NCBI GenBank assembly: GCA_001910725.1
Contig: MJGA01000096.1
Location: 1 to 36,706, forward strand
Length of the DNA: 36,706 nucleotides
Origin: Phanerodontia chrysosporium
Lineage: Eukaryota; Basidiomycota; Agaricomycetes; Polyporales; Phanerochaetaceae
Direction: 5' to 3'
Below, one piece after another: positions 4,102 through 36,706 of this stretch. Position 1 is the first letter of the stretch. Each line of letters opens with the position of its first letter. The notes beneath the pieces are model-generated. The model was not told the origin of the DNA. It did no database searches and saw nothing but the letters and a program-made list of their open reading frames with translations. Made by a program: the position numbers and the translations under genes.

Positions 4102-4711
4102 ACGTACCGCCCCCGCGCTCTGTATTCTCTCGCCCTCGATTTTCGGTCCTCATCTCTTGCGCTTTTTGCCCCTTTCCTGCACAATCAATATAGCACCAGC
4201 CCTCATACGTCTGTGCATGTACTCATTAAAGTATTTCCATGTACCTCGCACGCCGTCGTTGTTAGTACTCAGTCGTTGTTGTCGATCATGATACATCGGA
4301 GCTAGCGTCACCTCTAGCAGTTCTCATCGAGTATTCTCCGCTTTGGCGTGCCTGCAAATCCGTGCGAGGATCATGTATGTACGTGGAAGTAAAACGAGAA
4401 AGTTCTTTCGGACTCGGAAGCGTGGTCGTGTGCTCATTAGAGTTTGTCGGGTGCCCTAGCTCCAGCTCCGCGAGCTCTTTGGCTCTGCCGCTGGTCTGAT
4501 TCTTACATACCAAACACACGGCGGGAAGCGAAACTGGTCGTGTAACACCGCAGAGTACCCTCCTAGCTGAGCTGGTCGCGAGATAGGCCATTCATCGAGC
4601 ATCCAAATTAGCAACCATTCTGTCTACTCTACAACAACCTTCCGCGCCTGCCATACATGCGATACATGTCTATATCATCCCCCCGCATATCTCGCCAGTG
4701 CAGATATCTCG
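4102..4711. other. Convergent intergenic region with 3' UTRs
   Basis: This lies between the eIF5A stop and the stop of the SRAP-like gene on the other strand. CATTAAAGTATTT at 4224-4236 could be part of the eIF5A polyadenylation region. No gene is recognised here. Confidence 0.5.
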
Positions 4712-6054: not shown

Positions 6055-7330
6055 GTGGGCGGGACGGCGAAGGGATGCGCGATGCTGATGGGTAAAAATT
6101 TCCGCTAGAGCGTTCTTGTTGGCTCGCACCACCGTCGCTGGGGAGACGCGAGATGAACAGCCTGGGTTTTCCGCCACGCGAGGTCTATATATCCCGGGAA
6201 TAACCGCAAAAGCGCTTGCTGCGCCTCGAGAAGACAACCTCTACGGCATGCCGCTCGTCCTCGGTCATTTTGTTGGACAGGCAAAGGACACCACTAGCCT
6301 CCATGGATACCCCGCGCTACTATTGCGGCTGGCGACTGCCCGCTGCAGCGCTTTGCGGTCCCCCCTTGCTGATCTAGGCTCGGAAAGCGGTCAACATCAG
6401 TAAATTGCGCATGAACCGCTACACACCTCTCCAACGGCGAAAGCGGATCTGTCTGCCCATTCAAAACGACCAGTATCGCATCCTGTTCGATTGGACGAGT
6501 GACAGACTCTCCTCGGAGCGGTGCCGCTCGAAACACCTAGCTAGGACGACGCCTATCACCGTTCCCCCCAATTTTTGACGGTCCGACGTCGCACTCGGCA
6601 GCTACACAGCACCACAAACGCACATCACGCACGTACAAGTGCTTGACAGGGCCCGGACTAGAGGATAATGCTAGATGGTGCTTCGAGCGACACTGGGAGA
6701 GTAGCCTCGAGGTGCATCAAAGTATCTGACGGGTCAAAGAGCGGTTCTCTTGAAGGCGGCTCGTGCTGAGGTGGGGGTGAACAGCGCACGGGCTCGGTAG
6801 TCATGGTAAAGGTGAGAAGCTTGAATGCTGCATTTAGGGTACTGGTTATAGCCATACGCCTCGACGCTGTACATGAGGATGCAACATGTTATCCTCGCTG
6901 CACAAAGGCACCATCAAGCATGCGGCAAGCGGCCTGGCCTGTGCATGACCAAAGGGAGGTATCTGGGTACAGGCGTGCTGGCCGACAGCCGGATGCAGAA
7001 TGAGCGTAGAACGTAGACGCCATTGCGACCTAGTAGTAGACACGTCAGAGGATGTACTACTGTGACAATCATGCGGCATACCTGACATGTCTAAGGGGAT
7101 TTTCCCAGAATGCCCCCACTCGCGCCATCGAGAGAGAGCGACAGGCGAGAGCCAGTGCCACCCCCGAGACATTCGATCTTGCAGTGTGTAGTCGTCGCCC
7201 GACGGGCGCTACACGGATACGGGACGGAGGAGACTAGCGCCTGTGCGCTGAGTCCGAATTTGGAAGTCGGAGCACAAACCAGTCCTCAGACTCAACCGCC
7301 ACCACATCGAGCCCGACGACGACGAGAGGG
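6055..7330. promoter_or_regulatory. Divergent spacer between the SRAP-like and TAF8-like genes
   Basis: This is 1.28 kb without a recognised gene. A TATATA element at 6185-6190 lies about 130 bp upstream of the SRAP-like start, which would suit its promoter. The last 130 bp before 7331 hold the TAF8-like leader. A 65-codon ATG frame on minus at 6855-6658 is open but has no family features, and I do not call it. Confidence 0.45.
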
Positions 7331-10057: not shown

Positions 10058-11733
10058 TCACCACTGACTCGACGTGCTCCTGGTTTCCAGCCCCTCAGTA
10101 CCTCTCGCGTGCCTCGGGTCGCCGTCGCCAGTCTCGCGAATCGCTGCCTCGCCCTGGCGTCGGTGGCTTAGTCCTTCTAGCTCACCCGCACCCAGCAAGG
10201 GCCATAACATTCTAGGCAGTAGGCACGTGTTGCACTTGCAATCTTGAGGGAGGAGCCTGTAGGTTCCCTCGGCAAGTCCTGCAAACGACGGGTCCTCCAA
10301 TGTCGTCCTGTCACCGTGCAGCTCTTCCAGGAAGGTTGTTACGAGCTCGTAGTATCGCTCCAGGTCACCTGCTTCGACACACGCCTGTCGGAGCATCGAG
10401 CTGAAACCAGAAGTCTCCAACGGAGCCCGGGGTTGTTCGTTGATCGCTTCCGTGAGGTCATCCGCACTAATCTCCGGGACGGGGCGTCTGGATAGAGACT
10501 GAGACTGCCGCCTCTGCCATAGCTGCACGTAGGATGTGAACTTGATGAATTCGCAGCAGAGTTGGGTACTAGTCCTCATGTCGGACTCGTCGGACGACCT
10601 CTGGTAGAGTGAATCGATGACGATATACTCAGCAAACTAAGTGTGCGTAGCTAGAAACATGGACGCACTGATCTGAGATAACTCTCCACAGCATGCCCGG
10701 CCCATGTCACGCGGATCGGCTCCGTCACCCACACATACATGGCAAGCTGGATGCTTGGGATAAAGGAGAATAGCAGGGGGTAATCATTGCCATAATAGGC
10801 TCGCTGAATGGAGGACCAATCCAAAAGATAATAGGGCCAGAGTGTGATGAATGGATGCCTCTCTGGGGATCCAAGATACCTTTGAGTCGGTGACGATGCA
10901 AGCAGCTCGGTGACAAGTGGCACATTGAGAATTTCTGCCAAGCATATGAAGCCGTTGCTTTTCCGCCACAAAGCATCTGGATGTCGCTCGCCTAAGAAGA
11001 ACTGCGGGAAGGAGTCATCGAAGGGTGTTACGCTGCGGTCTGCATTGATCATCAAGATGCTCTTCAGGCCTAGTAATACCGATAAGTCGTATTCGTGGCC
11101 TAGAGACAAATTGTACAGTTGACTAAGCTTGCTGCCCATGTTCAGGCCTCCCTTGCACACAGCTAAGGCCACTATGATGTTCATGCGATCCTGCTGGTTG
11201 ATGTTGCAGCTGTTATGTTGGAACGATAGAATAGCCTGGTAGATGATATTGGCTGACGAAGGTATCTGTTTGCAAAGGAGATGTTGGAGTGCCATGGACT
11301 CTAGGTGAGAATGTTCCCTGCATAGATAGTTAACTACAGCCCTTGCAACTGCGATGTCATTGCCAACAAGTCTCGAAAGCTTTTGGAGGTAGTGAGGATG
11401 CTTTCGAAGATAGTCTTGGAGATGCTGGGGAACAATCAAGAGCCTAGTCTCCAGATAATGTTGTGCACTACATGCGCTGTGTTGTAGACCATCACCTAAT
11501 GGTTGGTAATGCACAAGGTGTATCAACCTGGGATCCAAGAGTCTCGCTGTGATGTGTAGCAAGGGTTGTGAAGTGATGAATATACGAAGCCAAGGGAAAT
11601 TGCAAACCAGGTCAAGCAGATATCGCAACAGCCCTGAGACGGCCTCCTTCTCAGGTAGGCCATCAATCCCATCGATGACTATGACTGTTGGCTTGAAAGG
11701 CATTTTTGCAAGAGCACGATGGATCATGTCTCT

Positions 11734-11738
11734 GATTA
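11734..11738. repeat. Target-site duplication GATTA (left)
   Basis: GATTA lies directly before the LTR start TATCACA at 11739. Its partner lies at 12339-12343, directly after the LTR end TGTGACA. Confidence 0.85.
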
Positions 11739-12338
11739 TATCACAAAAATGCGCTGCCCTAGCGCCTATACACCAAACCAACCAGCAATACTCACTGGCA
11801 AAGGTTTACTTGGACTACAAGGGGTGTAGCCAAGCTTGAAGACGAGGTATAAAGACTAGAGAGGTGAAATGCGATGAGATTGAAGCTGGGGAGGCACCCC
11901 CAGCCCTCAGGGTTTATATACATGTGCACCAGGTCCCCAGGGACTGGTGTTCAGGGTCCTAGCTATCTAATACCTACTACGCCATTGGCTAGTGCCCTAC
12001 AGGCATTCCTACATTCTCCTACACGTTCCTAAATGTTCCTACGATGTCCCAGAAACCTCCAGAACGTTCCAGCACTGTCCAGACCTGTCCAGAGACCTCC
12101 AGGACTTTCTAGTCCATTCCGGAGTGTCTCGGCGCTTCCAGACCCTTGCCTGCTTCTAGACCTTCGACCATGTGACCCTGGGATACCGCACGTGTGCGCA
12201 TCACGTGACCGCCGTATCACGTGACCAGCCCCGAGCCTAGGGCTGTCACTCCAGCGCTTCTGCATGTCACAGTTCGGAGTAATCGCTTCTGTCACCTGCT
12301 GCCCCTAACCCTAAGGGTTGAGACGAAAAACTGTGACA
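11739..12338 (-). mobile_element. Solo LTR of an LTR retrotransposon, 600 bp
   Basis: Read on minus, the element starts TGTCACAG and ends TTGTGATA. This is the TG..CA form with one C-to-T change at the far end and imperfect 8-bp terminal inverted repeats. It is flanked by a perfect 5-bp GATTA duplication. It carries TATATAAACC (minus strand, 11912-11921) followed by a C/T-rich initiator-like tract, as expected for a U3-R boundary, so its transcription would run the same way as the NLR gene. The U3 part contains GGTCACGTGA boxes and a field of degenerate CTGGA(A/C)(A/G) words. There is no internal coding region, primer-binding site or second LTR, so it is a solo LTR left by recombination. Confidence 0.85.
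12201..12226. promoter_or_regulatory. Two TCACGTGACC E-box sites in the LTR
   Basis: TCACGTGACC occurs at 12201-12210 and 12217-12226, with a related CATGTGACCC at 12169. CACGTG is the classic core bound by bHLH factors such as Cbf1/USF types. Two exact copies 16 bp apart in a U3 region suggest an upstream activating site. This is inferred from sequence only. Confidence 0.45.
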
Positions 12339-12343
12339 GATTA
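12339..12343. repeat. Target-site duplication GATTA (right)
   Basis: Partner of the copy at 11734-11738. Removing the LTR and one copy joins the NACHT reading frame exactly. Confidence 0.85.
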
Positions 12344-13753
12344 CATGTTCCATTCCATATTCGTCACCCTCCGAGAGGTGCTTCCGGACAATGTCTTGCA
12401 CAACTTTAGCATCAGAACCGAGACTTGAGTGTAGCTGATATGCAAGTGATGGCAGGAAAACACGAAGTGGAGTATCAGAGGGACAATTGTCCTTCATAAA
12501 GAAGCAGGAGGCCACAAGAATGTGGGCCTTGGGCTCTGATGCTTCATTTAGACGTGTACAGACCTGGTAGGCAAGAGATGATTTCCCAGAGCCTGGCTCA
12601 CCAGAGAGAAAGTAAACAGCTTTCTGCCCTGGTGCTGGCCAGCATTGTAGATCAGCCAGAATAAGATGCCGCCCAGACTCGTGCTTATGATCTGACATGT
12701 GGTGAAATGACATGTGAGTCATTAGCTCGAGGAGGGTTGCAGTCTCTTCTGAGGATGTGAATACTATTTAAATGAAAGGTTGCTGGAAGTGTCTAGCAGA
12801 TGACTTACCAGCCAGCTTCCATTCATATTCTCTATCCTGTGCAAAACTGTGAGTGAGCCTTGAGAGGATTGGTGAAATGATTGGGCTCCACAAACCAATG
12901 TGTCACGGATTGTGATCAAAATATCAATGAGACTAACTGAGTCGCAGTGCTAGAGACGTGGGCAAATCATTCTGGCTGATCATTAAATGCGAACAAAAGT
13001 GACACAATACCTCAAAAACAGTGGTGGCCGTGTCCAAACGCTCCTTCATCTCTCTGAGAATGGCACAGTTATGATTGAGTGATCTTGGGCCAAGGGAGCT
13101 TAGAAAGTGCCGCAGGCCTTTGCTGGGGGCACTCCTCAACCTGTTGGCACATTTGCTGACGTGCAACAGCTCGCTGTGTTCCATGTCAACACAAGCAGGC
13201 TGCAGTGGGCTGCAACATACCTGAGCAGGTTCCGAGCTCTCTCTTGGAGTTTTTCGCAGGACTTGATTCTCTCTTTCACTTCCTCTTGCCAATCCTGGGC
13301 CCTGGGGTCGGTCAGAATGTCTTCCACCTTTCCGATGGTCTTCATGATAATGTTATCCAAGCTTGAGATACTAGCTGTAAGCATGGCTTTCTGCTCACGG
13401 CAGTGGTCATCGGGGAGGGTCTGGATAGGATTACATGGTTAATAAATGATGCCACAGGATGCTTTGGGACGGCGTACCTGAAGATTCATCTCTAGGTTAT
13501 CCATCTCGGCGATGATAGCTGTGAAATGTGTCAATCGCTCGGTTTGGTACAGGTAGTACTCATGCATTGCCGTCGAGTACACGAAGAGCGGATAACGAGA
13601 TGTTGGTGGTGGAGTGCAAGTGTAAGGGTACTGCGGGAGCGTCGAGTACGTTGGAACATGTGCTTGCGACGCGCGTCGCTCGTGTTCGGAAATGAAGTAT
13701 GGCTGTGTGCCGTGCACACGAGGCGCGGACCAATAAAGAGGGTCGACAGGCAT

Positions 13754-13869
13754 TGCGGTATACTGATCTGAGGCGACGGCGCGGTCTGCTGCCTGTGCGT
13801 CGTGAGAACAGTCGAGTGCCACGAGGTCTGTCCCTAACCCCAGGCCTGCCTCCCACTTCGCCCAAGACC
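13754..13869. promoter_or_regulatory. Compact 116-bp divergent promoter, NLR-like / SRAP
   Basis: Only 116 bp separate the NLR-like start codon (minus) from the SRAP start codon (plus). Either the transcripts start inside this spacer or their 5' regions overlap the neighbour. No TATA box is evident. Confidence 0.45.
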
Positions 13870-15380
13870 ATGTGCGGCCGCTTTGCACTCGGGCTCCCGG
13901 TACGTCGCCATTTCCCCACCAGCGGACTGCACCACCCACGTGAGCACAGCACGACGAGATCCAGGCCCTGCACGGCTACGACGGCCTCGCGGTCGGCGAC
14001 TGGGTCGCGCGCGACGCCTTCGTCCCGCGCTTCAACATCGCCCCGCGCTCGCAGGCCCCTGTCGTCTGCCGCGCCGACGCACTCGCCTCCGCTGCCTCCG
14101 CCAACCCCAGCGCTGCTGGCCCCTCTGCCTCCGCAACCCACGAGGAAGGTCGAGAGGCTGGCGAACGCCGCAGCGGACACGATGCAGAGGACGCCGCGCT
14201 CGTGCTGCACACGATGAAGTGGGGGCTCGTCCCGCACTGGAGCACGCGCGAGGACCCCACGCTCAACACCATCAACGCGCGCGCCGAGGCGCTCGAGGAG
14301 GGCACCGGCATGTGGAAGGGCCTCCGCGCCCGCAGGCGCTGTGCCGTGCCGTGCCAGGGGTGCGTCCTGCTCTCTGTTCCTGCACGCGGCCAGCGGGGCA
14401 CTGAGGGCCGCAAGGTACTACGAGTGGCTCAAGAAGGGCCGCGAGCGCCTCCCGCATTTCACCCGGCGCGCGGACGGGCAGCTCATGCTCCTCGCCGGGC
14501 TCTGGGACGTCGCCGTGCTCCCAGGTGCGCCCCCGCCCCCTCCTTGTCCGCTCCTTGCCCGCCTCACGACGCGCAACAGGGCACGCCGAGCCGCTGTACA
14601 CCTTTACCATCGTCACGACCGCCGCGTGCGCCGCGCTCGCGTGGCTGCACGACCGGCAGCCCGTCGTGCTCGACAGCGCGGACGCCCTGCGCACGTGGCT
14701 CGACGTCGGGCGGCACCCCTGGGACGCGCACGTCGTGCGCCTGCTCGCGCCGCCGCGCGGGGAGAACCTCACATGGTGCGCGCCCCCGCCTCTGGTGCAC
14801 GACGGACCGCCGTGCGGTGCGGTGCGGTGCTGACGGTCTCGTTGCGGGCAGCTATCCGGTGCCGAAGGAGGTCGGCAAGGTCGGCGCCGAGTCGCCCGCG
14901 TTCGTCGAGCCCCTCGCGGCGCGCAGGGACGGCATCGAGGCCATGTTCGCGCGGCAGGTGGCCAAGGCTCCGAAACGCAGCGCGTCGCCGGGGCTCCCTG
15001 AGCTAGTGTCCTCGCCGCCGAAGAAGACAAAGTCGGACGAAGACGAGACAGCGGAGGAGCCGAAGACGGAGAAGATGAACACCTGGGAGGACGACGAGGT
15101 CGAGATCCTCGACGTTGACGCGCCTTCTGAGGGTCCGAAGCGCAAGAGTACGAGTACTAGCAAAGAGGTAAGACGGACGTGGTGTGTATGCCGCTCGTCA
15201 GGTGCTGACGCGGTGTGCGTAGGCATCCCAAGGTTCACCATCGAAAAAGGTAGGACTTTCAGAGCCCAATACAGTCGATGCTGACGCAGGGTGCAGAAAA
15301 AGACAGCAAGGGCCACAAAGTCCAAGAAGCCGCAGGTGAAACAGGACAAGTCAAAGATCACAGCGTATTTTGGAAAGTGA
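13870..15380 (+). CDS. SRAP-domain abasic-site processing protein (HMCES/YedK family)
   Basis: It forms a thiazolidine DNA-protein crosslink with abasic sites in single-stranded DNA, shielding them at replication forks; it acts in the nucleus. The seven exons are 13870-13899, 13950-14359, 14415-14524, 14580-14775, 14852-15167, 15223-15249 and 15297-15380; they sum to 1173 nt (390 aa). All catalytic residues are present: Cys2 in MCGRFALGLP (exposed after Met removal), Asn in TINARAE, Glu in GYYEWLKKG and His in WLHDRQPVVL. FNIAPRSQAPV and MKWGLVPHWS are also typical. The SRAP fold ends at AMFARQ. The long basic/acidic tail ends KSKITAYFGK, which resembles a PCNA-interacting (PIP-like) box with Lys in place of the usual Gln. 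The start is fixed because Cys2 must follow the initiator Met. Its dead paralogue lies about 8 kb to the left. Confidence 0.93.
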
Positions 15381-24327: not shown

Positions 24328-25117
24328 TCAGAGGCGGCTTTGCCTGCGCAGCTTGTCCCTCAGCCGCATGAGAGCCTTGCCGAGCTCATTCCTGCCCTTG
24401 CGGTCCGCGCCACAGCCCCAGAACGAATCAACCTGCAGCCGCCTCAGTACATAGTCTCGTTACTCGAACTCAGGCCGACTTACGGGACTGTCCTCGATGA
24501 TCTCTCTGTCTCCGGTGTCCAGCAGCAGCTGCTTGAGGTCCGCATTCTGGGTGAACTTGGCTTCGATGACCTCGTCCATGACGCTGATGTTCACGGAGAA
24601 CCAGTCCTTGCGCTGGTAGCTCCGCAGACGCGTCGCCTCCTCGAGGGCCGCGCGCGACGACTTGGCGTTACGGATGCGCTCCGCGAGGTCTGGGCGCGTC
24701 GAGAGGAACTTGTGCGCTTGGAACACTAAGGGCTGGTTCAAGCTATGTCCATCCATGACCCAATCCACGTGGCTTACAGTGCTCGGACGTAGGGTACATC
24801 TTGCCCTCGAACTGGATGGGGTGAGGAGAGAAGTTCGTGAATCTGTGTCACAAGGCGTCAGTGCTCATTTTCATTGCACCGTCAGACAGCAAGACATACT
24901 CATAATAAGGCTCGTTCCTATGGTAGAACATGAGAGGCCCCTCTTGCGCAGGGGGCTGTGCATATGCTTTCCTCTGCTTGGTCTTTCGCAGGACCACTGT
25001 CGACTCTTCAAGCTCGATACCCCCTCCACCAGACGTTCACCACGCACCTACGACTTGCCGCCAGGCGACAAGGACGAGACACAGCGCGACGCCCGACAGC
25101 ACGATCCAAGGCTCCAT
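24328..25117 (-). CDS. NADAR-domain protein, copy A, with N-terminal membrane anchor
   Basis: NADAR (YbiA/DUF1768) enzymes hydrolyse N-glycosidic bonds in ADP-ribose-like compounds; members remove ADP-ribose from guanine or clear riboflavin-pathway intermediates. The exons resolved on minus are 24842-24778, 24725-24484 and 24432-24328. The first exon region runs 25117-24900 and contains a short intron of 39-42 nt whose ends I could not fix. The protein is about 195 aa. Family landmarks in order are FYHRNEPYYE, FTNFSPHPIQFEGKMYPTSEH, FQAHKFLSTRPDLAERI, QRKDWFSVNISVMDEVIEAKF, LLLDTGDREIIEDSP and VDSFWGCGADRKGRNELGKAL. Before the domain lies MEPWIVLSGVALCLVLVAW, a hydrophobic anchor followed by a basic linker (LRKTKQRK), so the enzyme probably faces the cytosol from a membrane. 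This copy is intact. Confidence 0.88.
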
Positions 25118-25964
25118 GATTGTTAGTCGCAGGTGCAAAGCCTGGAAGCCGTGTCCCTTTACATACGCCCCGTCACCGTAGGTTTGATGGAAATGCGCTC
25201 TCACGTGTCTGCAGCGCGTTCCCCAAGACGGTCTCCTCGCGCGCCTCGGCGGGTCGTGTGAGCGAACCTTGTACGGGGCGCCCCCTTTGCTCGTGTCCAC
25301 GCCGCCGAAGGCACAAGCTTGCGGCAGGAGCGCAGCCTCTGCATGCAGGGAACGGCCCACGACGCCTCCTACGCGATTGCCATCGCTAGCGGAGTATCAA
25401 GGGCATAACCCTCATGAGCAACCATGCCGAGTATCCGTGCCATGCCACTCGACAGTGCCCTCGGCTACGCCGCAGGCGATGTTGCGGAAATGCAGCACGT
25501 CCTCCCCGCATGTAGGGGGATGAGGAGGAGGATACTCTGGCTGTGTGACATCTCATGAAAGTGTACACGAATCACGAGGGGCAAATGCGTGTGTACAGCT
25601 CTGTAGTGCGATATTGGAGCCAATCGGAGGCACGACGTTCCTGGGAATCGCGCCCTCAGGCCTCTAGCGCAAGAGCAGTACCTTTGCCCAGCACCACAGC
25701 TCATACGAGACGGTTATCCTATACCCTTGCTGCACTTCTGCACAACTGTTCGCGAAGAGCGAGGAGTCTTGGAGCTGACAACCCTCCGGATTCATGTCAG
25801 AACTGAAATGACTCGCTGCAGCATTGTACAATGAACCGTATCATTCATGAATGGTATGTCTGAAGCAAAAGCAGGTCCCCTCCGAGTCGACATCGACCGA
25901 GCTTCCCCGAGTGAGCAGCGTCAAGCGGCCGCAAGACGAGCATGGCTATGGTCGTCACGTAGTC
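25118..25964. other. Spacer between NADAR copies A and B, no gene recognised
   Basis: 847 bp. It must contain the promoter of copy A near 25120-25300 and the 3' UTR of copy B. Frames on both strands are short and lack family features. I looked for further NADAR motifs (FWG, TSEH, DW..N.) and found none. Confidence 0.4.
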
Positions 25965-26944
25965 TCACTGCCCCCCGTGTAGCCGCTCCTCACGAAGTTT
26001 CTCCCTTACCCTCATGAGACACTTCCCCAGCTCGTTCCTGCCCTGTCTGTCGGCGCCGCACCCCCAGAACGAGTCGACCTGCAAGCCTCCGCGTCAGCAG
26101 CCACTCGACCCTACACAGACACTGCACACGCACCGGGCTGTCCTCGATGAGCTCCCTGTCGCCCGTCGCGAGCAGCATCTCGCGCAGGTCCTCGTGGTGC
26201 CGGAACTTGGCCTCGACGACGCGCTCCATGACGCCGATGTTCACGTGGTACCAGTCGCGCCGCTGCCACCCGCGGTGCCGCGTCGCCTCCTGCAGCGCCG
26301 CGCGCGGCGTCGGCTGTGCGCGGATGTGCTCGACGAGCGTCGGGTCCGTGTCTTCGAACTTGAGGGCCTGGAAGACTGCAGGCCGCCCCTGAGCACATGA
26401 CAACCTGTGAAAGGGCTGCAAGGACTCACGATGTTCAGACGTCGGGAATCGTCGCCCGTCGTGCCAGACTGAATAGTTGGCGAAGTTCGTGAATCTGTAG
26501 GGGAATCAGTGCTTGTCAAAGCATTGGATGGCTGCTCCCACTCGTAGTATGGCTCGCCTCGGTTGTAGAAGTATATGGGTCCTGCGACCGGGGTACGGGC
26601 CCGTGAAGGAGGGCGCGAGCGTGACCGCGTGCGTGATCGTGGCCGCCCTGGCTGTACGCGAGGTGAAGAGGCTCTGTCCTGTGCATGTACAGTAAAGGAC
26701 GGTATGACAGGAGCTGATGGACGTTCAGCGCGCCGACGATGGAAACTAGCAGCACTATAGATGACGCACCAAGGTATTGATTCCACGTAGTATGCATCCC
26801 CGCCACCAGAGTCTGTGGATACGCGGAGAAGTCGGGCATTCGCACCCATCCCATAATCTGCTGTTGTGCTCCCAGGAAATATGGCTGTACAATGGGATAC
26901 CATTGCGCGTACGCAGAGCCCTGAGATGGGTGGTGATCGCCCAT
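25965..26944 (-). CDS. NADAR-domain protein, copy B, with membrane segment and Arg/Ser linker
   Basis: Exons on minus are 26944-26723, 26678-26542, 26494-26430, 26375-26134 and 26078-25965; they sum to 780 nt (259 aa) with every phase correct. The N-terminal 55 residues (MGDHHPSQGSAYAQWYPIVQ ...) precede a membrane segment, LGASSIVLLVSIVGAL, then an Arg/Ser-rich linker (RPRSRTRSRSRPPSRAR). The NADAR domain follows: IYFYNRGEPYYE, FTNFANYSVWHDGRRFPTSEH, FQALKF, QRRDWYHVNIGVMERVVEAKF, LLATGDRELIEDSP and VDSFWGCGADRQGRNELGKCL. It is intact. The ATG at 26944 was preferred because the frame further upstream has no ATG. It stands upstream of copy A on the same strand. The same membrane-anchor, basic-linker, enzyme layout as copy A suggests a shared site of action. 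Confidence 0.88.
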
Positions 26945-27289
26945 GAGGTCGCCGAGAGGTGCGCGAGTGGAGGCAAGTGACAAAGAGAAGTGCTAGCCAG
27001 TGCAGCGTCCTGAGCCTGTGGATGGACTGATTACCGCGCATGCTGGATGCGGGCAATCAGTGATTCCCTTGTAATGAGTTACGATAGTCGGATGTCGCAA
27101 GAGTCTTGATGTGGGCAGTGCGGTGCTGTTTCACAGTCTTTTCCTTTGAACCCCCCCCCCCCCTGCATCAAGAAACCTATATTCAGGGATGATTGCGTGC
27201 AGGTGCTTTCAAGAATGTATATAACATTGCAATTCGGCTGAGTACATTTGATACACTCGAACGAACACATCGATCCTGCAGAGCCGAAG
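26945..27289. other. Spacer between NADAR copies B and C with a C13 tract
   Basis: 345 bp containing the upstream region of copy B. A run of 13 C residues lies at 27151-27163. No gene is recognised. Confidence 0.5.
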
Positions 27290-28003
27290 TCAAGTCGCAC
27301 TCGGCATGGCGACGGTGGCGGTTGCGGTACACCCTTGTGATGTTTGTTCGTTGGCAATGGCAGCGTCGACCGAGGCTCTCGTGGTGCGCCGGAGAGCGAG
27401 AACGGTGCGCATGTTGGCGAGGATCTTGCCGAACTCGTTCTTCCCTTGACCGTCCTTACCGCAGCCCAGAAGGAGTCATACTGACGGTCAATGGACTTTA
27501 GATATATGACTTTCGGCAAAGCTTTCCGCACTTACTGGGGAATTGTATACAAGCTGTCTCTCCCCGGTAGACAGCAACATGGTAAGCGCGTCGTCGTGTT
27601 GCGAGAACTTCGCTGCTACGACTGCTTCCATACAGCTTATCTTGACCTCATCCCAGTCTGTCCGCTGGTGTTGCGTATTGTTGTTTGCCAACCGTACAGC
27701 CGAAAGCCATGTGTTTTGGACCCGGATTTCTTCCGCCAAGTCAGCACGTGGGGTGTCCAGAAACATGAAAGCATGGAAAACTACAGTTTGTGAATAGCCA
27801 TATCATCGATCGGAGTGCGAGACAGTACATACGATGCTCAGCAGTGCTGTACCGCTTGCCTTCATGCCACACAGCATGTTGGGAGATATTCATCAGTCTG
27901 GAAATACCGTCAATATCCATCGTAGCGATTATTCCAACGTTGCGCACTCCCAGAATGGTTCGCCCGGTTCGTAGAAGAACAGAGGCGGCGCTAAAGCTGA
28001 CAT
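27290..28003 (-). pseudogene. Compact NADAR-domain gene, copy C, with a one-base frame break
   Basis: The start ATG at 28003 leads almost directly into the domain (MSALAPPLFFYEPGEPFWE). Introns fall at the same places and phases as in the other copies. Landmarks are HAVWHEGKRYSTAEH, QRTDWDEVKISCMEAVVAAKF and LLSTGERQLVYNSP. In the last exon the conserved FWG motif lacks one base in its G run (27475-27477 on plus); adding one base reopens the frame to a stop at 27290. The copy also departs from family consensus: FTNF reads LMNI, and the usual Lys in FQA.KF is Met. It lies only 43 bp downstream of copy D. It could be a fresh pseudogene, a diverged gene with an undercalled base, or both diverged and dead. 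Confidence 0.75.
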
Positions 28004-28046
28004 TGACTCATTTGCTGTAAAGTAGTGGCTTGTCAACTCACGCAGG

Positions 28047-29244
28047 CTAAGTGCCAGAGAAACTCACATGCGTGGAGCGCAGCGCGCTCTTTGTCAGACC
28101 TCTCGAATTCCGAAAACAGGGACGGTTCTTCGGATTTCGTGCTGTTTTGCCTGAGCGGGTTAGGCTTTGGGGGAACCACCTACGGAGGTGGGCGGGACTA
28201 ACATGAGATCTCTTCATTGACATGGCATACATACTACCCACCGGTGGCTGCTTCCGAGGACTGGAAGGCAATCCAAGACCTGCCGCACTACTGGTACGGG
28301 GTGGCGGGGACGTGATGTTCATCGGTCTCGGCCCGGCAGGGGCTAGAGTCGACGCTGGAGCCACTGATGCCTGCGATGTGGTCCTGCTGCTGGCAGCGAT
28401 GGGGGTAGCGCTGACCACAGACAACTGGTTTCTTCGTAACTGATCCCGTATCTTCATCAAGGCTTTACCTAGCTCGTTTCTGCCTTTGCGGTCATGCCCG
28501 TACCCCAGAAAGCATCCACCTTGACACGCGCAGTCACCGTCTGCTGATCATGCAGATAGATCGCACTCACCGGACTTGCTTCGACAAGTTCTCTATCCCC
28601 TGTACCCAAGAGCATCTCGTATAGTTTGCGATGTTGCGTGAATTTCAGGAGCACGACCTCCTCCATGACACTGATGTTGACGTTATACCAGTCGCTGCGC
28701 TGTAGCTTGCGCAGCCTTGTCGCTGTCTCGAGTGCTGCCCGAGAGTTGGGTGTCGTCCTAATTTGCTCGGCTAGCTCAGGACGTGAATCGATGAACTTGC
28801 GGGCTTGAAAGACTGCTGTGCGATTAGAATGACGTACAAAGTCGTGGTAAATCGACCCACGATGCTCAGACGTTGGATATATCTTGCCCCTGTATTCCAC
28901 ATCGTAGGAAGCAAAATTCGTGAATCTAGCGCACGAGAATTAGGCGGGGAGCACGTAAACAGCACAAAGCTTACATACTCATAATATGGCCTATCTCTTT
29001 CGTAGAAGAAGAGGGTGGAAGTGTCCTGCGCCTTCGAGCCTTGACTTCGTTTCGTTGCCTCCGTTCCACTAGCACCGTAGCTCGTCAGGTTCCATGGCTG
29101 CGGATTATACGATCCAGTTCTCTTCGAGTCCCAGGCTGTCTGTGTATTGCTGGGTCTGACATCGTTGCCCGCACTACTCTGAGCTCGGGCGCGCCATCTC
29201 TTTTCGTCCACCTCTGCTTGTGTGAATTGCGCCGCTTTACTCAC
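28047..29244 (-). pseudogene. NADAR-domain gene, copy D, with long Ser/Pro tail and a one-base frame break
   Basis: Landmarks are LFFYERDRPYYE, FTNFASYDVEYRGKIYPTSEH, FQARKFIDSRPELAEQI, QRSDWYNVNISVMEEVVLLKF and LLGTGDRELVEASP. The FWG motif of the last exon again lacks one base in its G run (28503-28506 on plus). In the shifted frame the domain finishes normally (RKGRNELGKAL ... IRDQLRRN) and continues into a 120-residue Ser/Pro/Thr-rich tail ending at 28047. The N-terminus is open: the hydrophilic segment before the domain (SNTQTAWDSKRTGSYNPQPW ...) has no in-frame ATG after the stop near 29260, so an upstream exon must exist and was not found. The intron at 28978-28926 matches its counterpart in the other copies. 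Confidence 0.72.
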
Positions 29245-30065
29245 TTCGTCGTAAAGTCAGCCCCGTAAAAGTCTCTCGCAAGCAGACCCTCACATACTGT
29301 TCGCGGTCTGGTTCATGGTAGTACACAGATGACAATGAGACGCACATCGCTATCGAGGCGGCAGCTGAACGGACTCGCAGGCTGATGTGCTAAGCGCCAT
29401 CACGAACAGCATGCCGCATTCCGCAGTTGGTTCTCACGAACAGCCTTGCAGAGCTCTTGCGGCAGACCTCGTGCATACGGTGAGTATTCTCAACTACAGA
29501 TGTATCGCAGTGCTGCGTGGTCCACGAGGTCCCCTTTAGCATGGGAAAACCACTCGGCATCCGGAAAGCTGATGCGTCTCCCTACTGATCGTCGCAATCG
29601 TTATGGATCAATCTTAGGTCTCCCGGAGCACATAGAACGGGAGGACCAAGCGCACTGCCATCCGCATTCGCAGCCTCTTTCAGATCTAACCCCCGATGTC
29701 AGCGCAGGCGCGGCATTTGTCTCGTATGAGGTTCCTGCCACGCGAGCGCGAAGGGCCCGGGACTCGAGAGCGCACGACGAGTTCTTCACTGCGCAAATAT
29801 TGATCGGGGGCACAACGACGGGTGTGTTAGTTGCCTGAGCGTATTCATGGCGCAGGTTCAAGGCTAGCAAAAAAAGGTGACCTTTCTGATATTACAAGCT
29901 GAACGGAAAATCGGGCTCAACATTATGTGATACGCGTAAAATGTGTGAGTATACAGAAACGACCAAAATACGCAGCGAAACGAAGCAGAAATGAATCGTC
30001 TAGCAACGCCCATGGTCATTAAATCGCAATGAATACAAGGACTCACGTACCAACTGTCTGATGAC
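29245..30065. other. Unresolved spacer, possible missing exons
   Basis: It probably holds the missing first exon of NADAR copy D. On minus near 29330-29290 a short frame reads VYYHEPDREQ followed by GTATGTGAGG, resembling the end of NADAR exon 1 (FY...P.YE then GTATGT). On plus, 29600-29838 is open and reads DLTPDVSAGAAFVSYEVPAT; on minus the same stretch is open too (ATNTPVVVPPINIC). I could not choose between them. Confidence 0.3.
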
Positions 30066-30590
30066 TAACCAGTCGCCCCACTCAGAATATAAGCACTTGC
30101 GCAGGTGCGACCGCAAAATTCGTGGACCGTGAACGGCACTTGGGACGCACATCAGTCTAAGTCTGACAATCTTGCATATCGATGATAAGTCATACCTCTG
30201 CTACGATCTACAAAGACCGGTTTTGTCTTGCAGTACTGCGGAGAAACGCGTGAGCGTGCAGGCAGATGTAAGATGCACAGCAGCAGGCAGTCACACCTTG
30301 CATATGCGCGAATGCGGGTTCCACAGCGTTGGCGGGGCCTGCACAATCAGGATGTTCGTCGTTCGAGGTTGTTGCTGCTGCGTAGCTGAGGCCACCGGCT
30401 GGTATGGCGGGGGCTGTTGTGATGCAGGGGGCTGCTGGGAGGAAGAGGCCTGCTGGGCCTGCTGGGTCTTCCACTCGTTCAAGTGCGCGCGCGAACAGAA
30501 CTGGGAGGGCTTGCCACTAGGGTCGTGCCATACGGGAGACGAGCAGCCTGGCAGAGAGCAGGTGGTGCTGAACTTCCCCCGCCGTGACAT
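30066..30590 (-). CDS. Short zinc-finger protein matching the N-terminus of the PARP-like genes
   Basis: Exon 1 (MSRRGKFSTTCSLPGCSSPV ... QFCSRAHL, a Gln/Pro/Ser-rich linker, then RICK) splices through a GTGTGA..CGCAG intron to YCKTKPVFVDRSR, then through a GTATGA..CCAAG intron to VPFTVHEFCGRTCA. A stop at 30068-30066 follows after YILSGATG. The Cys/His pattern (C-x4-C, FCSRxH, C-x2-C, HEFCGRxC) matches the zinc-binding region of the ART gene at 34895-33185 (CALPGCSAPVW, YCSRSHL, HEFCGRGC), but no catalytic domain follows. An in-frame upstream ATG at 30620 would add ten residues. It is either a stand-alone zinc adaptor or the stump of an ART gene that lost its catalytic half. It is divergent from NADAR copy E. 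Confidence 0.6.
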
Positions 30591-31246
30591 CGAGAGAAGG
30601 TTAGGGAGAGCGTTAAGCATGGAGGTGGGAGCTGAGGGCTGCGACTACCGCGCAATTGGAGGACATGGCGCCTACTACGGTCTCCGCCAGGCACAGTGCC
30701 TCCATGCCATATACGGCGTGTCTGGGGTTGACGTCGACTCTAGCAGCAGGTACGCGGCCTCAGGCCGTCTAGTACTGAAATTTGCTGTCTTCGCCTGCAA
30801 GCGACTGAGTCAAATGTGCGTGGGTTTACCTCAGGCGCGTCCGCGCAATAGCGTGATCTTGAGGCGTGCAATCACTAACCGTCGAAGTCAGGGCATCCTA
30901 CCATGGGCGGCGAGGGCTCAACGGGACGCGAACTCTGTCTGAAACAAGAACGTGGGAGATACGATACCTGTATGGGGGACTCCACTAACGCTCACTGACA
31001 TTAGACGAGTCTTGAAGCTTGAGGGCTGACGGCCATCGCGCTCTCTAGACTTCAGACACCATGCAGCCGATTATCCGTACGTGAATATCCACTTCGAATC
31101 TGCGCTACGAGGCTAAGGAGACACCTGTCCTCAGTCCAAGTTTCTGTCGAACAACTGCACAATCGCTGTCAGGAATCGGAGGTTGATGGGGTGCTCTCTC
31201 CACAAACGTACCAAGCCGTGGTGGATCTACGCCCACACGAGCGATC
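30591..31246. promoter_or_regulatory. Divergent spacer between the zinc-finger gene and NADAR copy E
   Basis: 656 bp between two genes transcribed away from each other. I see no recognised gene or clear TATA element. The open plus-strand frame over 30172-30942 is the complement of the zinc-finger exons and has no protein character. Confidence 0.4.
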
Positions 31247-32121
31247 ATGCACAAGACAAATACGCCGGGAGGAAATAACCATCTGTCTCGCAGGACTCTC
31301 GAGGCCGGAAAGGGTATATTCCGTGTCACGGCAGATACTACAAGAACGCAGGAGCGCGCTGGAGAGGTTGCGGAGAATCCTGAAAGCAGATCAGCGAGTA
31401 CAGAGGCGGGTGAAGACTGTCTCAAGCCAGAGGAACACCACGATACGCCTATCCGCTTTCACGAGCGTGACCAGCCGTACTATGAGTGCGTTGAGACATA
31501 TGTGACTGGACGTCCGTATTCATGGCTTGCGAACAGGTTCACCAACTTCGCGCCGTACGCGGTATTGTTTGAGGGCAAGGCGTATCCTACGGCTGAGCAT
31601 CGTCAGTTACGACACCGATATGGGAAACTCGCAGCGACTGACTATGCTCAAGTATTTCAGGCGCACAAGTTCTTGAGCGTACGTCCTGATATTGCAGAGC
31701 GCATACGAAGCGCAGCAAGCCCCAGAGAGGCACAGGGTGAGGCCGCCAGGGTGCGCAAGCTGCAACGGCGGGACTGGTTCGATATCAGCCTCGCCGTGAT
31801 GGAGCAGATTCTAGAGGCGATGTTTACCCAGTACGAGGGCTTGCGCTCCATGCTCCTTGAAACAGGGAGCAGGGAGCTTGTAGAAGCCAGCCCCGTAAGA
31901 TTCTGAAAACTAGCCCATCTATGACTGAGCTGATGCGTGGTCAGACGGATGCGTTCTGGGGATCAGGAGCGGACGGTGGAGGGCGAAATGAGTTGGGAAG
32001 AGCCCTGGGGCGTGTGAGAGGTAAAATATTGGCAGATGCACAAGCAGATGTGCAGGCAGCTTCTAGTGGTCGTCAGCCTGAAGGAGATGGCAGAGGACGC
32101 TCTGGAGGACGCCCACCGTGA
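31247..32121 (+). CDS. NADAR-domain protein, copy E, intact, soluble
   Basis: Exons are 31247-31485, 31537-31601, 31653-31894 and 31945-32121, totalling 723 nt (240 aa) with every phase correct. The N-terminal 70 residues are hydrophilic, with no membrane segment. The domain reads IRFHERDQPYYE, FTNFAPYAVLFEGKAYPTAEH, FQAHKFLSVRPDIAERI, QRRDWFDISLAVMEQILEAMF, LLETGSRELVEASP and TDAFWGSGADGGGRNELGRAL, followed by a Gly/Arg-rich tail (GRGRSGGRPP). It is the only copy on plus. The stop codon overlaps a perfect GTGAGT donor (32118-32123); splicing from there to CCTACAG at 32181 would replace the stop and add a His/Gln/Pro-rich tail ending at 32342. Both forms are possible. Confidence 0.87.
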
Positions 32122-33184
32122 GTGCTCGAGGAATGGAGCCGATTCATGGTTGGAATAATCACCTTCATGCGCTGTCCTACAGGCCGAGCGAGCATGTGGG
32201 CAACCACGACGCTCAGCCTCTCTACCAGCAAAGGACCAGCTTCGTCCGACCGCCGCCATATGCCAGTCCGATTGTTGCGTCTCGAAGGGGCACCGTTCTT
32301 CATCATCTCCACCGACAAGCGCATGTCGCAGAGCTCGGATAGCAGAAGCGTAGTTATGCAAGAGTTACTCGAGACAATAGCTGATATTGGATGGATGGGG
32401 CGAGGACGGTGTCTTGCTGTGACAAGCTTGTACGTCCGGACATTCGCAGAGTCGGCAGGCAACAAGATTTGATGTGCCTGATCCGAGTATTGATCCGCAA
32501 GAGTCTACCTCGACAGGATGTATTTGGCCCGACGTCCCATCTGCACGGAGGAACCGTTTGATTTTCCTGCTGCGAGTAGTCTTTCTACTGTTCCGAATCA
32601 TGTCATGCGGGCATAGCCGTAAGGCATGCCTGCACGGCCACCTATCTCTTCGTTCTGACTGCGTCGCGTACGTGGAACGAGACAGAAAGCTATCGAGAGG
32701 TATCGAGTTACCGCCGGCGAGGAGGCCCAAGGCAACGCAGAGGCCCAGGAGAGAGAGAAGTGTGATCATCTCCTCGTGGTCGAGTTCTTTTCCCTTAATC
32801 CTATACGCGTCCCAGCACTCCCTCGGCTGGGCTACCTGAAATCCACTTCTCTACCCCAGCAACGTCTGTCTCTCCCCCCTTTCACCTCTCTCGGTCTTAG
32901 CACCTGTACAGCTGGCCTCATAGTCACCCGCAGGCTTGTATTGCCCTGACTTGATGTCTTCGCGTATGCGTGCTGGTGGAAGCAAAGGAGATCCAGTAAG
33001 GAACCCAGACAACTCCATCCCCAAAGGACTACCCAGCACCCGTTCATCTGAAGAGCGAGTATTGTTATTGTATTGGTATATAAGCTACAAGGACCACAAT
33101 AAATGGTAATATCGGAAGGCACTCAGCGCGGGGTATATCAGGCACGAAGATGACGATTCCATGTTTCCACAGGCAACCGGACGA
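32122..33184. other. Unresolved spacer with two weak coding candidates
   Basis: On minus, an ATG at 32769 begins MITLLSLLGLCVALGLLAGG, a hydrophobic segment followed by a GTAACT donor, then a basic stretch (SRKTTRSRKIKRFLR). This is like the anchor and linker of NADAR copies A and B, but without a NADAR domain. Also on minus, after an AG at about 33040, DERVLGSPLGMELSGFLTGS ... ERQTLLG runs to a stop near 32851 and looks like a final exon. On plus, 32122-32472 stays open after the NADAR E stop. None can be confirmed. Confidence 0.3.
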
Positions 33185-34895
33185 TCATTCGCTCGGTTCG
33201 AATATGACAAGGTATTCGGGTCGGATGGCATCGTTCTATCAGAGATCAAACGTCAGAATATCTAGACGTACAATGCATGCTCTCCATACCGTGTAGACTG
33301 ATAAGTATGAGTAAGTACTGAGACACTAGCACATCTGAATTATTTCGCTTACCGACAGCCTCATCATAGTTGACAGTCAGTCCAGGCTCCCCACGACAGA
33401 GTCGTACCCGGGAGGGGCTGAAGGTCGCGACATTAGAGCATGGCCGAGGTAGCAGGTTTCTGAGACTCTACCTTGGTCAGAGTGTGATCCTCTTGCGGGG
33501 CTTCCACACCTTGCCCATAATCACCTCGCAGAGGAACATCGCCCGGTATGGAGAGTTTCCCGAATTATTGATGTAGTCGTAAGCCTAAAGCGACGCTTCA
33601 TTAATGATGTCTAGAACAAAGCTGGAAACGTACCTTGGACGAAGTAGCTGAGCTATATATTCCCTGGCCGAACCGCTGGTAGCTGCTCGGACCCGCCTTT
33701 CCAGCTTTGGCGAGCATGAATGAGTTCTGAAAAATCTCTCAGCTTACGCGAAAACGGATGGTTTCTTTGGCGCACCTGGAGGATGCCACACATCGAACAT
33801 CCTTGTGTACTGCAGAACCCCGAGTTCGCTGGGTCGTCCCCAATCCTGCAAGCGCGGGTCGTACCATGCCAGCGTCGTCTTGGGTTGCCTACTCTGCTCC
33901 TGAATAGACGACGATAATTGAGCACGCCAAGCTAAACGCTGTGGCTCAGAAGGGACGTACTTGTATGCACGGAAGCGTTTCATGTGTTGCTCTCTTGAAT
34001 ATATTTTGTATAGCTGTTGAGACGTTAGCGTGACACGCTTTGCATGACAGCCATCGTCACCTTCACGACCGGTCCGGGCATTGGTTTGTTGGCATAGCAG
34101 GATGCTTCCACTTTTCTATAAACAATGCCGAGACTGCGAGATGAACTTCAACAAGAGTCCTTCGACTAGACTCCTACTTCGTGACTTACTATCCTTAAAT
34201 TCCTCGTCACTCTGGGTATTTCCAGTATTGTCGGGCCTTCGCAGGCATCGGTCAATGAATGTCACCCGTGTCTGGAACGAGTGCATACCTGAACTATATG
34301 TTCTGTTCTTGCAGACTTCGGAGCAAAAGTCACTGAGCGCCGCGCCCATCCGTGCCTTCGGATACTGGTGACAGCTACTCCGCAAGCGACACCTCAGCTG
34401 GTGTCAATGAGGAGGAGATGATGGCGTACAGTAGGCACATCTCAACAGGACCAGTCGCCTGAAGCAAAGATCGATGAGCATTTCGTTGAAACATTGTCTA
34501 GATACTACGCACTGGGAAGCAAAGCCATCGATGCCCGCTCGCTGGCGGTATTCATTTGCGCAGCCGCGACCGCAAAACTCGTGCACTACCGGCATAGAGC
34601 GTTAATTCTGGAACCGTAGGAGAGGGAAGACACAATACTCTTTCCGTTTTCCACGTACACTCGCTGCTGGTGGCAATTCTGCGGCGACGCACATGAGCCC
34701 TCGGATGAACATCTCCCAACGTGGGCCACACACCTTGCACATCGGCATCTGGGAGGCACCGCCCCTCTTCTGTGGCGACTTCGCGGCGTTCAAGTGCGAG
34801 CGCGAGCAGTACGCCGATGGCTGGCCATCGTCGCCTACCCACACGGGAGCGGAGCAGCCTGGCAATGCGCAAGTCTTGTTGTTAGAGTGCCCCAT
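33185..34895 (-). pseudogene. Zinc-finger PARP-like ADP-ribosyltransferase gene with single-base frame breaks
   Basis: PARP-like enzymes transfer ADP-ribose from NAD+ to protein or nucleic acid. The N-terminus (ATG 34895; an in-frame ATG also at 34946) carries CALPGCSAPVW, YCSRSHL, HEFCGRGC and LSDFCSEVC zinc knuckles over several exons I only partly resolved. The catalytic part follows: LYKIYSREQHMKRFRAYK, NPRRRWHGTTRACRIGDDP, SGFCSTQGCSMCGILQ, YQRFGQGIYSSATSSKAYDY, MFLCEVIMGK, GYDSVV, VNYDEAV and finally NDAIRPEYLVIFEPSE, stop 33187-33185. The H-Y-E triad positions (WHGT, GIY, NYDE) are all present. The frame is interrupted at about 33389-33392 (C run on plus), again about 60-70 bp upstream on the gene near the end of the preceding exon, and possibly at the exon join between. 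These breaks may be decay or base-call gaps. Confidence 0.72.
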
Positions 34896-36023
34896 GGAGG
34901 AACGTCGCAAGGAAAGGCGAGCCGCTAGTGAAGTTAAGATGGGCATGATGCTTTGGAGGGACTTGCGCGTGGGAGCCTAAAGGAGCCGGAAGCCTCGCAG
35001 GTACAGCCTACAGTGATGCGCTGCCGGGCATTCAGCGACAGCTAATTGCGAGCGGTTGCAGTCCGGACTCACCGCATTGATAGCACGTGAGGTCCACCTG
35101 ATGGAAGACGGCGGACGACAAGAATTCTGAGCTTCCATGCATAGCTTGGGACGCGTTTCACACGGAAAATCGACGTAGCCCAGCTCCGAATTGGGTATGC
35201 ACGCAGATGGTGATCAACCCCTGAAACAGGGTGCACCGCTGCCAGGAAGGCCTTGTCAGGGTCAGTGAAATCTATTCAATTCGCTTGAGGCATCTTACCC
35301 AATGCGACGACGGTGTCTATGCGCGAAGCATGGAAGTAACATCGCCGGTGCCCCCGCAAATCGCCCGGGACGACTGAGGTCTCCCATCATACCCGATAGC
35401 TGAGACTTCCTATTACCGATCGATGAACCCTGTCTGCTACTAGGATTATGTCAGTCTTAGCTCAGTGCAATGTCGCGAAATTACGCACCTGCGCTGACAG
35501 GGCACGCCCCGTATAGCAAAGCCTGGCCCTTCGATCCCGCCCATTCTCCCTTGTATTTCCACCGGCAAGCGAAACTGAACCTTCGTCCTAGCGTGATGTG
35601 CAGCAGGCGATGCATTCTTCGAAGGAGCCACTCGTGCCAAGCGAGCACAGACAAGGGCCGTGACCAGAGAATACATTGGCGGGATGAGCGAGGCACCGCT
35701 GTTCCGAAGGGTCAGGACCTGCCCCGCTGTGCACGGGACGCTGGCATGGCGCCTAGATATCAGGGACCAGCAAGGCACATTTCGCGGGAACAGTCCATGT
35801 ATGGATGACTAGGATGCAGGAGCACGCTATCAAACGCGGTACCGTGCAGAGACAATTGGATTTGGGGCAATGCAGAACCGAACACTTATGGTATAAGGCG
35901 GAGATTATGCAGGGAATCGGCGAGCGGCGCTCTAACTGGGAACTCCAGACATGTGTCGTGCTGCCATCCAGGTCTGGGAGTGCAAGTTGATTAGGGTGTG
36001 ACGACGCTCATGAGGATGTGGAC
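34896..36023. other. Spacer between the two ART genes, no gene recognised
   Basis: 1.13 kb. An ATG frame of 112 codons on plus (35470-35808) and a similarly long frame on minus over the same bases (35778-35446) are both open; neither has recognisable motifs, so I call neither. The left end should hold the promoter of the gene at 34895. Confidence 0.35.
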
Positions 36024-36706
36024 TCACATGGTCGAGACAAGGACAAGGTACATGGGTCTGATCGCTTTGCTCTGGTAGGATGTCCTCATTGTCAGCATCG
36101 CACTGCGTGAGCAAAGCAGAATAAACCCTTACCGTATATACTTCAGTTTGGGGAGAGTGAGATTAGCTTTCGTGACGATAGATTCGTGGGACGTACCGAC
36201 GGCTTCATCGTAGTTGAGATGACCTCCTGGTACGCCTTGTACGGAATCGTGCCCCGTCGGTGGCTTGCATATTGTGGTTAGCTTATTTCTGCTGCTAGTA
36301 CAGAGGGCTCACCTTCGTCAGACGTGGTTGTTGGACTGCAGTCTGGCCGGGTTGCCCATCACGACTTCGTTCAGAAGTAGAGCCGAATATCTGGAGCTGG
36401 TGCTCCCCTTCGTATAATGATATGCCTGCGCACAGATCAACGTCAGAAAGGCCTGTAAAAACATAGGGAAACAACGCAGTACCTTCGAAGAGTTGAGCTC
36501 GTGTAGATTCCAGCACCGAATCGACCCCACTTGTGGCGCGATCGCGACAAGGAGATATCGTAGGATTTCTGCAACCAGGAGGTCATTCGGCGACGTCTGA
36601 CCCATGGCGAATCATTAATCCCGTACCTTCATGATACGGCAAAGCGAGCACTCGTCGCTAGAGCAAGGAGTCTTTGATGCGCCGTCTTCACCGATTTTTG
36701 CACGCG
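36024..36706 (-). pseudogene. Second PARP-like ADP-ribosyltransferase, C-terminal part, cut by the window edge
   Basis: The gene runs leftwards from beyond 36706, so its N-terminus and the HGT motif are outside. Visible in order: KIGEDGASKTPCSSDECSLC, then after a GTACGG..TTGCAG intron KSYDISLSRSRHKWGRFGAG and GIYTSST, AYHYTKGSTSSRYSALLLNE with VVMG, PPTGHDSVQGVPGGHLNYDE with AVVYT, and AIRPMYLVLVSTM with a stop at 36026-36024. The Tyr of GIY and the Glu of NYDE are present. It is close to the copy at 33185-34895 in layout and intron places. One base seems missing after GIYTSST (about 36492) and one near the end of the next exon (about 36320), both in short G/C doublets. It may be a pseudogene or undercalled. 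Confidence 0.65.

Follow-up and report, generated by a model that had tools for sequence, protein, structure and literature searches.

A conserved cluster of NADAR and PARP-like ADP-ribosyltransferase genes in Phanerodontia chrysosporium points to a candidate module for reversible ADP-ribosylation

Introduction

Enzymes of the NADAR family remove ADP-ribose from guanine. They are reported to hydrolyse guanine-linked ADP-ribose in DNA (PMC11543638) and to act on ADP-ribosylated guanosine in RNA, not on ADP-ribosylated phosphate ends (PMC11833690). Four tested subtypes, including YbiA, remove ADP-ribose from guanine, YbiA doing so on guanosine in vitro (PMC11125620), and activity on thymidine-linked ADP-ribose is reported to be absent (PMC11543638). 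We describe a cluster of genes for NADAR proteins and for PARP-like ADP-ribosyltransferases (ARTs) in the basidiomycete Phanerodontia chrysosporium. The cluster was recognized in a 36,706-base stretch of DNA (assembly GCA_001910725.1, contig MJGA01000096.1, positions 1 to 36,706), hereafter the window, for which a preliminary description had proposed a 12.4-kb island of five NADAR and three zinc-finger/PARP-like genes acting as a write/erase system.

The closest described systems are bacterial. In myxobacteria the ARTD-type toxin YarT has a YbiA as its antitoxin, and the pairs are reported to be specific (PMC11125620). An ARTD-type writer there stands beside a YbiA-class NADAR eraser, as in the island. 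However, YarT and YbiA are encoded in an operon of bacteria and the ART is small and stands alone, whereas the island is eukaryotic, multigene and intron-rich, and its PARP-type ARTs mostly carry zinc fingers. In DarT1-NADAR (DarTG1) an ARTD-type writer is also genetically linked to a NADAR eraser (PMC11543638). There, the linked NADARs form a clade of their own in which Asp replaces one Glu, whereas most island NADARs have the YbiA-type Glu, and the best fold matches of the island-type ART are PARP3 and tankyrase. Relative to the catalytic domains of tankyrase and other PARPs, ARTs of the island type add N-terminal zinc knuckles and, in nearly all database proteins with the HG[TS] motif, a cysteine cluster after it.

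Fungal PARPs have been placed in clades 1 and 6 only (PMC2964712). These are members of the PARP superfamily, as are the island ARTs, but they carry BRCT/WGR or UBCc domains rather than zinc knuckles. The island points to a zinc-knuckle family of Agaricomycete PARPs, one that was not found in the portion of that family history used here. Among eukaryotic NADAR proteins, SNA-3 of C. elegans has three NADAR domains and functions in RNA processing (trans-splicing); unlike the island NADARs, it has no linked ART mentioned in the relevant portion of the report (PMC11125620), which describes the physiological function of eukaryotic NADARs as unclear. No published ART-NADAR pairing in fungi was found among the matches listed from the open-licence PMC literature.

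Results and Discussion

Extent of the cluster

The clustering of PARP-like and NADAR genes is confirmed, is larger than first seen, and is conserved. The window is contig C142 of a 145-contig, 39.0-Mb genome. Positions 14470-36706 align with C59:34856-57097 at 97.5% identity and positions 1-7574 with C59:2421-10000 at 97.3% identity; these stretches indicate that the window is the second haplotype of C59:2421-57097, about 97% alike. For positions 7575-14469 the C59 match is a repeat alone (C59:10001-20000 was outside the comparison). On C59 the island occupies 44.7-98.3 kb (about 54 kb) and includes 13 NADAR loci (A to M) and eight PARP-like ART loci (ART1 to ART8, between 50.4 and 93.7 kb). 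The proposed clustering and repeated duplication are supported, and the C59 island is over four times longer than the 12.4 kb first named.

Matches to the NADAR model PF08719 are confined, genome-wide, to C59, its haplotig C142 and one place on C1. A genome-wide ART search returned 45 rows, with 41 on C59 or C142 and three at one place on C33; the remaining row, on C60, is non-significant (E 0.59). This concentration of both families on C59/C142 within 39 Mb places the clustering beyond chance. Both searches score the best candidates only, so the locus counts are lower bounds: at least one degenerate NADAR (on C1) and at least one ART of this type (found solely at C33:644129-644698) lie off the island. 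A Pfam PARP search of the raw genome found the canonical PARP on C2 as its sole match and missed the island ARTs exon by exon, presumably because these exons are short. Four exact TTAGGG units occur nowhere in the genome, an absence that does not bear on whether the island is subtelomeric. Several neighbouring genes within C59:50.4-95.2 kb are divergently arranged (ART1/NADAR E, ART4/NADAR F, ART8/NADAR J and ART6/ART7), 0.9 to 2.1 kb apart.

Linkage in other Polyporales

The co-occurrence that the preliminary description had proposed to look for in related genomes was found. Protein searches gave 70 ART matches, 97 NADAR matches and 94 ART profile matches, and the cross-species counts rest on the named ones. 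Two matches were placed on the same contig when their contigs were equally long; contig identity inferred in this way puts both families on one contig in eight of nine judgeable assemblies, from eight Polyporales species. These are Phanerochaete sordida (contig of 234,441 bases; 5 ART, 2 NADAR), P. carnosa (2,507,747; 3 ART, 4 NADAR), Fomitopsis serialis (609,855; 3 ART, 2 NADAR), Laetiporus sulphureus (156,492; 2 ART, 1 NADAR), Rhodofomes roseus (410,921; 1 ART, 3 NADAR), F. betulina (69,624; 1 ART, 2 NADAR), Daedalea quercina (115,264; 1 ART, 3 NADAR) and Phlebia brevispora (22,626; one of each). The last is alone in having gene numbers (g1676 and g1679) that give the distance between the two genes within the contig. 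The species belong to four families, all of the Polyporales (Phanerochaetaceae, Meruliaceae, Laetiporaceae and Fomitopsidaceae). In the ninth assembly, a second one of R. roseus, fragments of 4.4 kb and 40 kb carry the ART and the NADAR, respectively; Postia placenta was left out because its matches come from two different assemblies. If 40-Mb genomes and independence are assumed, the probability that a NADAR lands by chance on a contig with an ART ranges from 0.0006 to 0.23 between species. These values serve as a guide only, and they are not independent, because linkage can be inherited.

NADAR genes

NADAR gene models were obtained by spliced alignment to the P. carnosa relative P0075, and PF08719 scored above its curated cut-off at all five window loci (24343-32121; Table 1). 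Copies A, B and E, which the preliminary description had called intact, are open over the domain. All 13 C59 loci share a four-exon pattern, with aligned lengths of 35-38, 65-68, 241-245 and 83-90 bases, and 11 are open over the domain (frameshifts are in K and L). Active-site residues (Glu, Lys, Glu, Asp and Trp) were taken from the Phytophthora enzyme (PMC11543638) and transferred by spacing. Seven of the 13 loci (A, B, D, E, F, G and J; C59 alleles) are open and retain all five; the Lys and the second Glu are both missing in C, the first Glu is missing in I, and the second in H, L and M. The catalytic Glu corresponding to E125 of the P. nicotianae enzyme is present in nine loci (A, B, D, E, F, G, I, J and K) and is replaced by Tyr in C, Gln in L and Asn in M; Asp, the residue of DarT1-linked NADARs at the catalytic position, occurs there in H only. 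Both catalytic Glu residues are absent, in the alignment, from the NADAR-like gene on C1.

P. sordida P0073 is annotated as a single protein with two NADAR domains, and here D and then C adjoin in the same order; the second catalytic Glu is missing from NADAR C and from the second P0073 domain alike. Elsewhere, a predicted Fomitopsis schrenkii protein (P0100) combines RING-type and NADAR domains, and P0116 (mmetsp), probably a marine protist transcript, combines KptA/Tpt1 RNA 2'-phosphotransferase and NADAR domains in one chain. KptA/Tpt1 is an ART-fold enzyme, and P0116 thus joins a writer-type to an eraser-type domain.

The predicted model of the relative P0075 (not of a window copy) has the NADAR/YbiA fold, matching 2b3w (TMq 0.89) and 8bau (TMq 0.83). 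YbiA is the nearest characterized NADAR (44% identity in the fold search; profile E 6.4e-44).

ART genes

Three ART loci with zinc-finger and/or catalytic parts had been proposed in the window, and all three were recovered. Among the eight on C59, ART1 and ART8 have zinc knuckles only, and ART2 to ART7 have a catalytic domain with WHGT, GIYxS and DEA[IV]VY motifs, providing the H-Y-E residues in six of six C59 models. The C59 models of ART2, ART4, ART6 and ART7 are free of frameshifts; ART3 and ART5 have one each. Hand splicing of ART7 joined 13 exons into an unbroken 322-residue protein, with slight corrections suggested by a later model and by P0001, a 94% identical database protein. Pfam PARP (PF00644) matches the spliced C59 ART7 protein with E 1.5e-14, and its zinc knuckles match zf-FCS and YacG, both below cut-off.

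The catalytic-domain model of an ART relative, P0005, is PARP-like, with PARP3 and tankyrase as best matches and PARP4 and PARP1 also listed. DarT is not among the structure matches listed for P0005, a listing that excludes no family. H-Y-E is complete in 71 of 108 database ART proteins, many of which are short or partial, and of the 105 that have the HG[TS] motif, 102 show the cysteine cluster after it. Among the matches listed, the named proteins closest to the ARTs are from Phanerochaete.

Table 1. Positions of features in the window
Feature	Position	Strand	Description
NADAR A	24343..24937	-	Four domain exons, open; catalytic residues kept
NADAR B	25989..26579	-	Open; catalytic residues kept
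NADAR C	27398..27985	-	Lys and second Glu of the active site replaced; one last-exon frameshift here, open in C59
NADAR D	28431..29013	-	Catalytic residues kept; one last-exon frameshift here, open in C59
ART1	30068..30569	-	Two zinc knuckles; a catalytic part was not found; alignment model with one frameshift in both haplotypes
NADAR E	31247..32121	+	Open, ATG at 31247; divergent to ART1; exons 31247-31485, 31537-31601, 31653-31894 and 31945-32121 (end of last exon obtained by counting)
ART2	33194..34895	-	Zinc fingers and PARP-like catalytic domain, 14-exon model; H-Y-E present
ART3	36039..36695	-	Catalytic part, cut at window end (C59 model 56433-57472); one frameshift per haplotype; no zinc knuckle aligned
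NLR-like gene	10651..12764	-	NPHP3_N/NACHT matches
Repeat	11739..12338		About 600 bp; 5-base direct duplication
SRAP gene	13944..14830	+	
SRAP gene	5629..6237	-	Just over cut-off

Selection and frameshifts

Comparison of the two haplotypes over NADAR A to E and ART2, skipping gapped codons, gave 21 synonymous differences in 697.5 sites and 2 replacement differences in 2464.5 sites (Fisher p 2e-12), indicating that these genes are under strong purifying selection. NADAR A differs from its C59 allele by four synonymous and no replacement changes. The ratio of 21:2, together with the pattern of single-base gaps at the contig end, led us to reject an array of pseudogenes as the principal explanation of the locus. 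Between the 11 open NADAR paralogues the median replacement divergence (dN) is 0.35 and synonymous sites are mostly saturated, with synonymous divergence (dS) finite in 16 of 55 pairs and dN/dS among those at a median of 0.21 and a maximum of 0.46; by this sequence divergence the paralogues are old.

The haplotypes also differ by single-base gaps: 35 bases present in C59 are absent from the window and 10 present in the window are absent from C59. Beyond 32 kb lie 28 of the window gaps (6.0 per kb versus 0.4 per kb before that point) and seven of the 10 C59 gaps (1.5 versus 0.2 per kb); the latter argue against a fault of the window only. Substitutions are lower beyond 32 kb (14.1 versus 20.5 per kb). 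The single-base deficit of positions 32000-36706 relative to C59, at the end of the contig, is probably due to unpolished assembly. ART2 has five frameshifts in the window haplotype and none in C59; because single-base gaps rise past 32 kb and substitutions do not, the window frameshifts in ART2 are probably assembly errors. Those in NADAR C and D may be either assembly errors or real.

History of the two families

In the ART tree, several island genes group with individual proteins of P. sordida: ART5 with P0014 (97/80), ART6 with P0003 (100/97) and ART2 with P0007 (87/86, not starred), and ART7 falls in a group (95/82) that also contains P0002, the ART6 pair and the C33 ART. All four of these P. 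sordida proteins are encoded on its 234-kb contig. The tree of the NADARs places B with P0084 of P. carnosa and P0096 of P. sordida (98/93) and joins C to the second P0073 domain (95/95); 20 of the 45 inner branches of this tree are open and its bootstrap is unsettled. Since ARTs and NADARs alike group with individual P. sordida proteins, the island seems to predate the split from P. sordida, and to have included more than one lineage of either family by then. The ART tree also contains a separate 18-row clade (98/97) of Fomitopsidaceae, Laetiporus, Irpex, Phlebia and others, and several starred groups of the NADAR tree are confined to Fomitopsidaceae. Both families seem to have duplicated further in the Fomitopsis group, yet stayed linked.

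Proposed function and alternatives

Published NADAR activities and the anatomy of the island lead us to infer a writer-eraser module and, by analogy, point to a eukaryotic counterpart of the bacterial attach-and-remove pairs. The PARP-type ARTs, with their H-Y-E residues and, mostly, zinc fingers, would use NAD+ to place ADP-ribose on a cellular or foreign target. The target would most likely be guanine, in either RNA or DNA, which the zinc fingers would recruit as putative nucleic-acid guides. The adjoining YbiA-type NADARs would then hydrolyse the N-glycosidic bond, and in this way might protect or reset the cell's own molecules. The N-termini of ART2, ART7 and NADAR E are not strongly hydrophobic (best 12-residue mean hydropathy 1.29, 0.89 and 0.46, without a signal-peptide test), which fits intracellular proteins. 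Both families have duplicated and diverged at a single location, which is what a need for matching writer and eraser specificities would predict. The write/erase reading offered in the preliminary description fits the activities published for the YbiA class and for YarT-YbiA (PMC11125620, PMC11833690), and on balance we favour a link of this kind between the families. That the island is an intracellular module for reversible ADP-ribosylation, with guanine in nucleic acid as its most likely target, we consider slightly more probable than its negation.

Several observations weigh against such a module. An altered active site or a frameshift is found in six of the 13 NADARs, and ART3 and ART4 were aligned without zinc knuckles. 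Along the island one family gives way to the other eight times, versus a shuffled mean of 9.9; because the genes alternate no more than a random order would, strict gene pairs are absent, and fixed ART-NADAR units are rejected. Members also occur apart, namely the C33 ART of this genome, ARTs P0026 (P. sordida) and P0176 (L. sulphureus) and NADAR P0081 (D. quercina). Many listed Agaricomycetes have an ART without a NADAR match and some a NADAR without an ART match, although a missing match carries little weight, because the searches depend on shared words and the profile search scored just the candidates sharing most of them. YbiA of E. coli is active in vitro but does not rescue from DarT1 or YarT (PMC11125620), so belonging to the YbiA class does not fix the target. 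Finally, the NADAR literature, in the portions drawn on here, yielded no demonstration of NADAR action on ADP-ribosylated protein.

The lack of alternation would also suit genes that are neighbours by descent, with one NADAR and one ART ancestor lying in a duplication-prone Polyporales region and growing in tandem while serving unrelated pathways. Inherited linkage and local duplication could produce such a cluster without common function, each family occurs alone in some listed species, dispersed members exist, and the eight linked species, being all Polyporales, are not independent. Nevertheless, linkage persists in four families despite duplicates of different age in both gene families, co-occurrence is seen even on short contigs (22.6, 69.6, 115 and 156 kb), and in bacteria the two families have complementary chemistry. 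We regard common descent alone as the most credible of the alternatives, though unlikely. Less probable still is metabolite housekeeping, in which YbiA-like N-glycosidases for reactive riboflavin precursors or other small ribosides were amplified for dosage and the ARTs separately modify proteins. YbiA is the best match by both profile and fold and has also been assigned a role on riboflavin intermediates (PMC11543638), but a conserved single copy would be expected rather than 13 diverged copies among ARTs, the sole off-island NADAR found lacks two catalytic Glu residues, and YbiA itself strips ADP-ribose from guanosine in vitro (PMC11125620).

A protein ADP-ribosylation switch, with tankyrase-like ARTs modifying proteins in stress, incompatibility or virus response and NADARs processing released or protein-bound ADP-ribose, would suit the PARP-like catalytic-domain model of the ART relative, closest to PARP3 and tankyrase. 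However, NADARs are reported inactive on thymidine and phosphate-end ADP-ribose (PMC11543638, PMC11833690), guanine is the documented link, and protein-link activity was not found in the portions of those papers that we cite; this, too, is a highly doubtful explanation. A further possibility, tentative and rather improbable, is a toxin-antidote defence, in which zinc-finger PARPs would ADP-ribosylate guanine in the nucleic acids of invaders (viruses, transposons or foreign nuclei) and the coevolving NADAR array would shield self. If true, it would be, as far as our searches show, the first native eukaryotic writer-eraser pair for guanine ADP-ribosylation.

Whether for defence or not, a writer-eraser module would carry reversible ADP-ribosylation of bases beyond the toxin-antitoxin operons of bacteria, into a multigene system of the Agaricomycetes. 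The conserved linkage of PARP-like and NADAR genes provides candidate writers, and it brings the role of eukaryotic NADARs within reach of experiments on a few proteins.

Other genes of the window

Also encoded in the window is an NLR-like gene that is split by a repeat (Table 1). The repeat has about 40 other listed places at 98-99% identity, several of them paired about 7.5 kb apart; because of these copies and pairs, it is probably a solo long terminal repeat. Two genes of the SRAP family, which handles abasic sites in single-stranded DNA, are also present.

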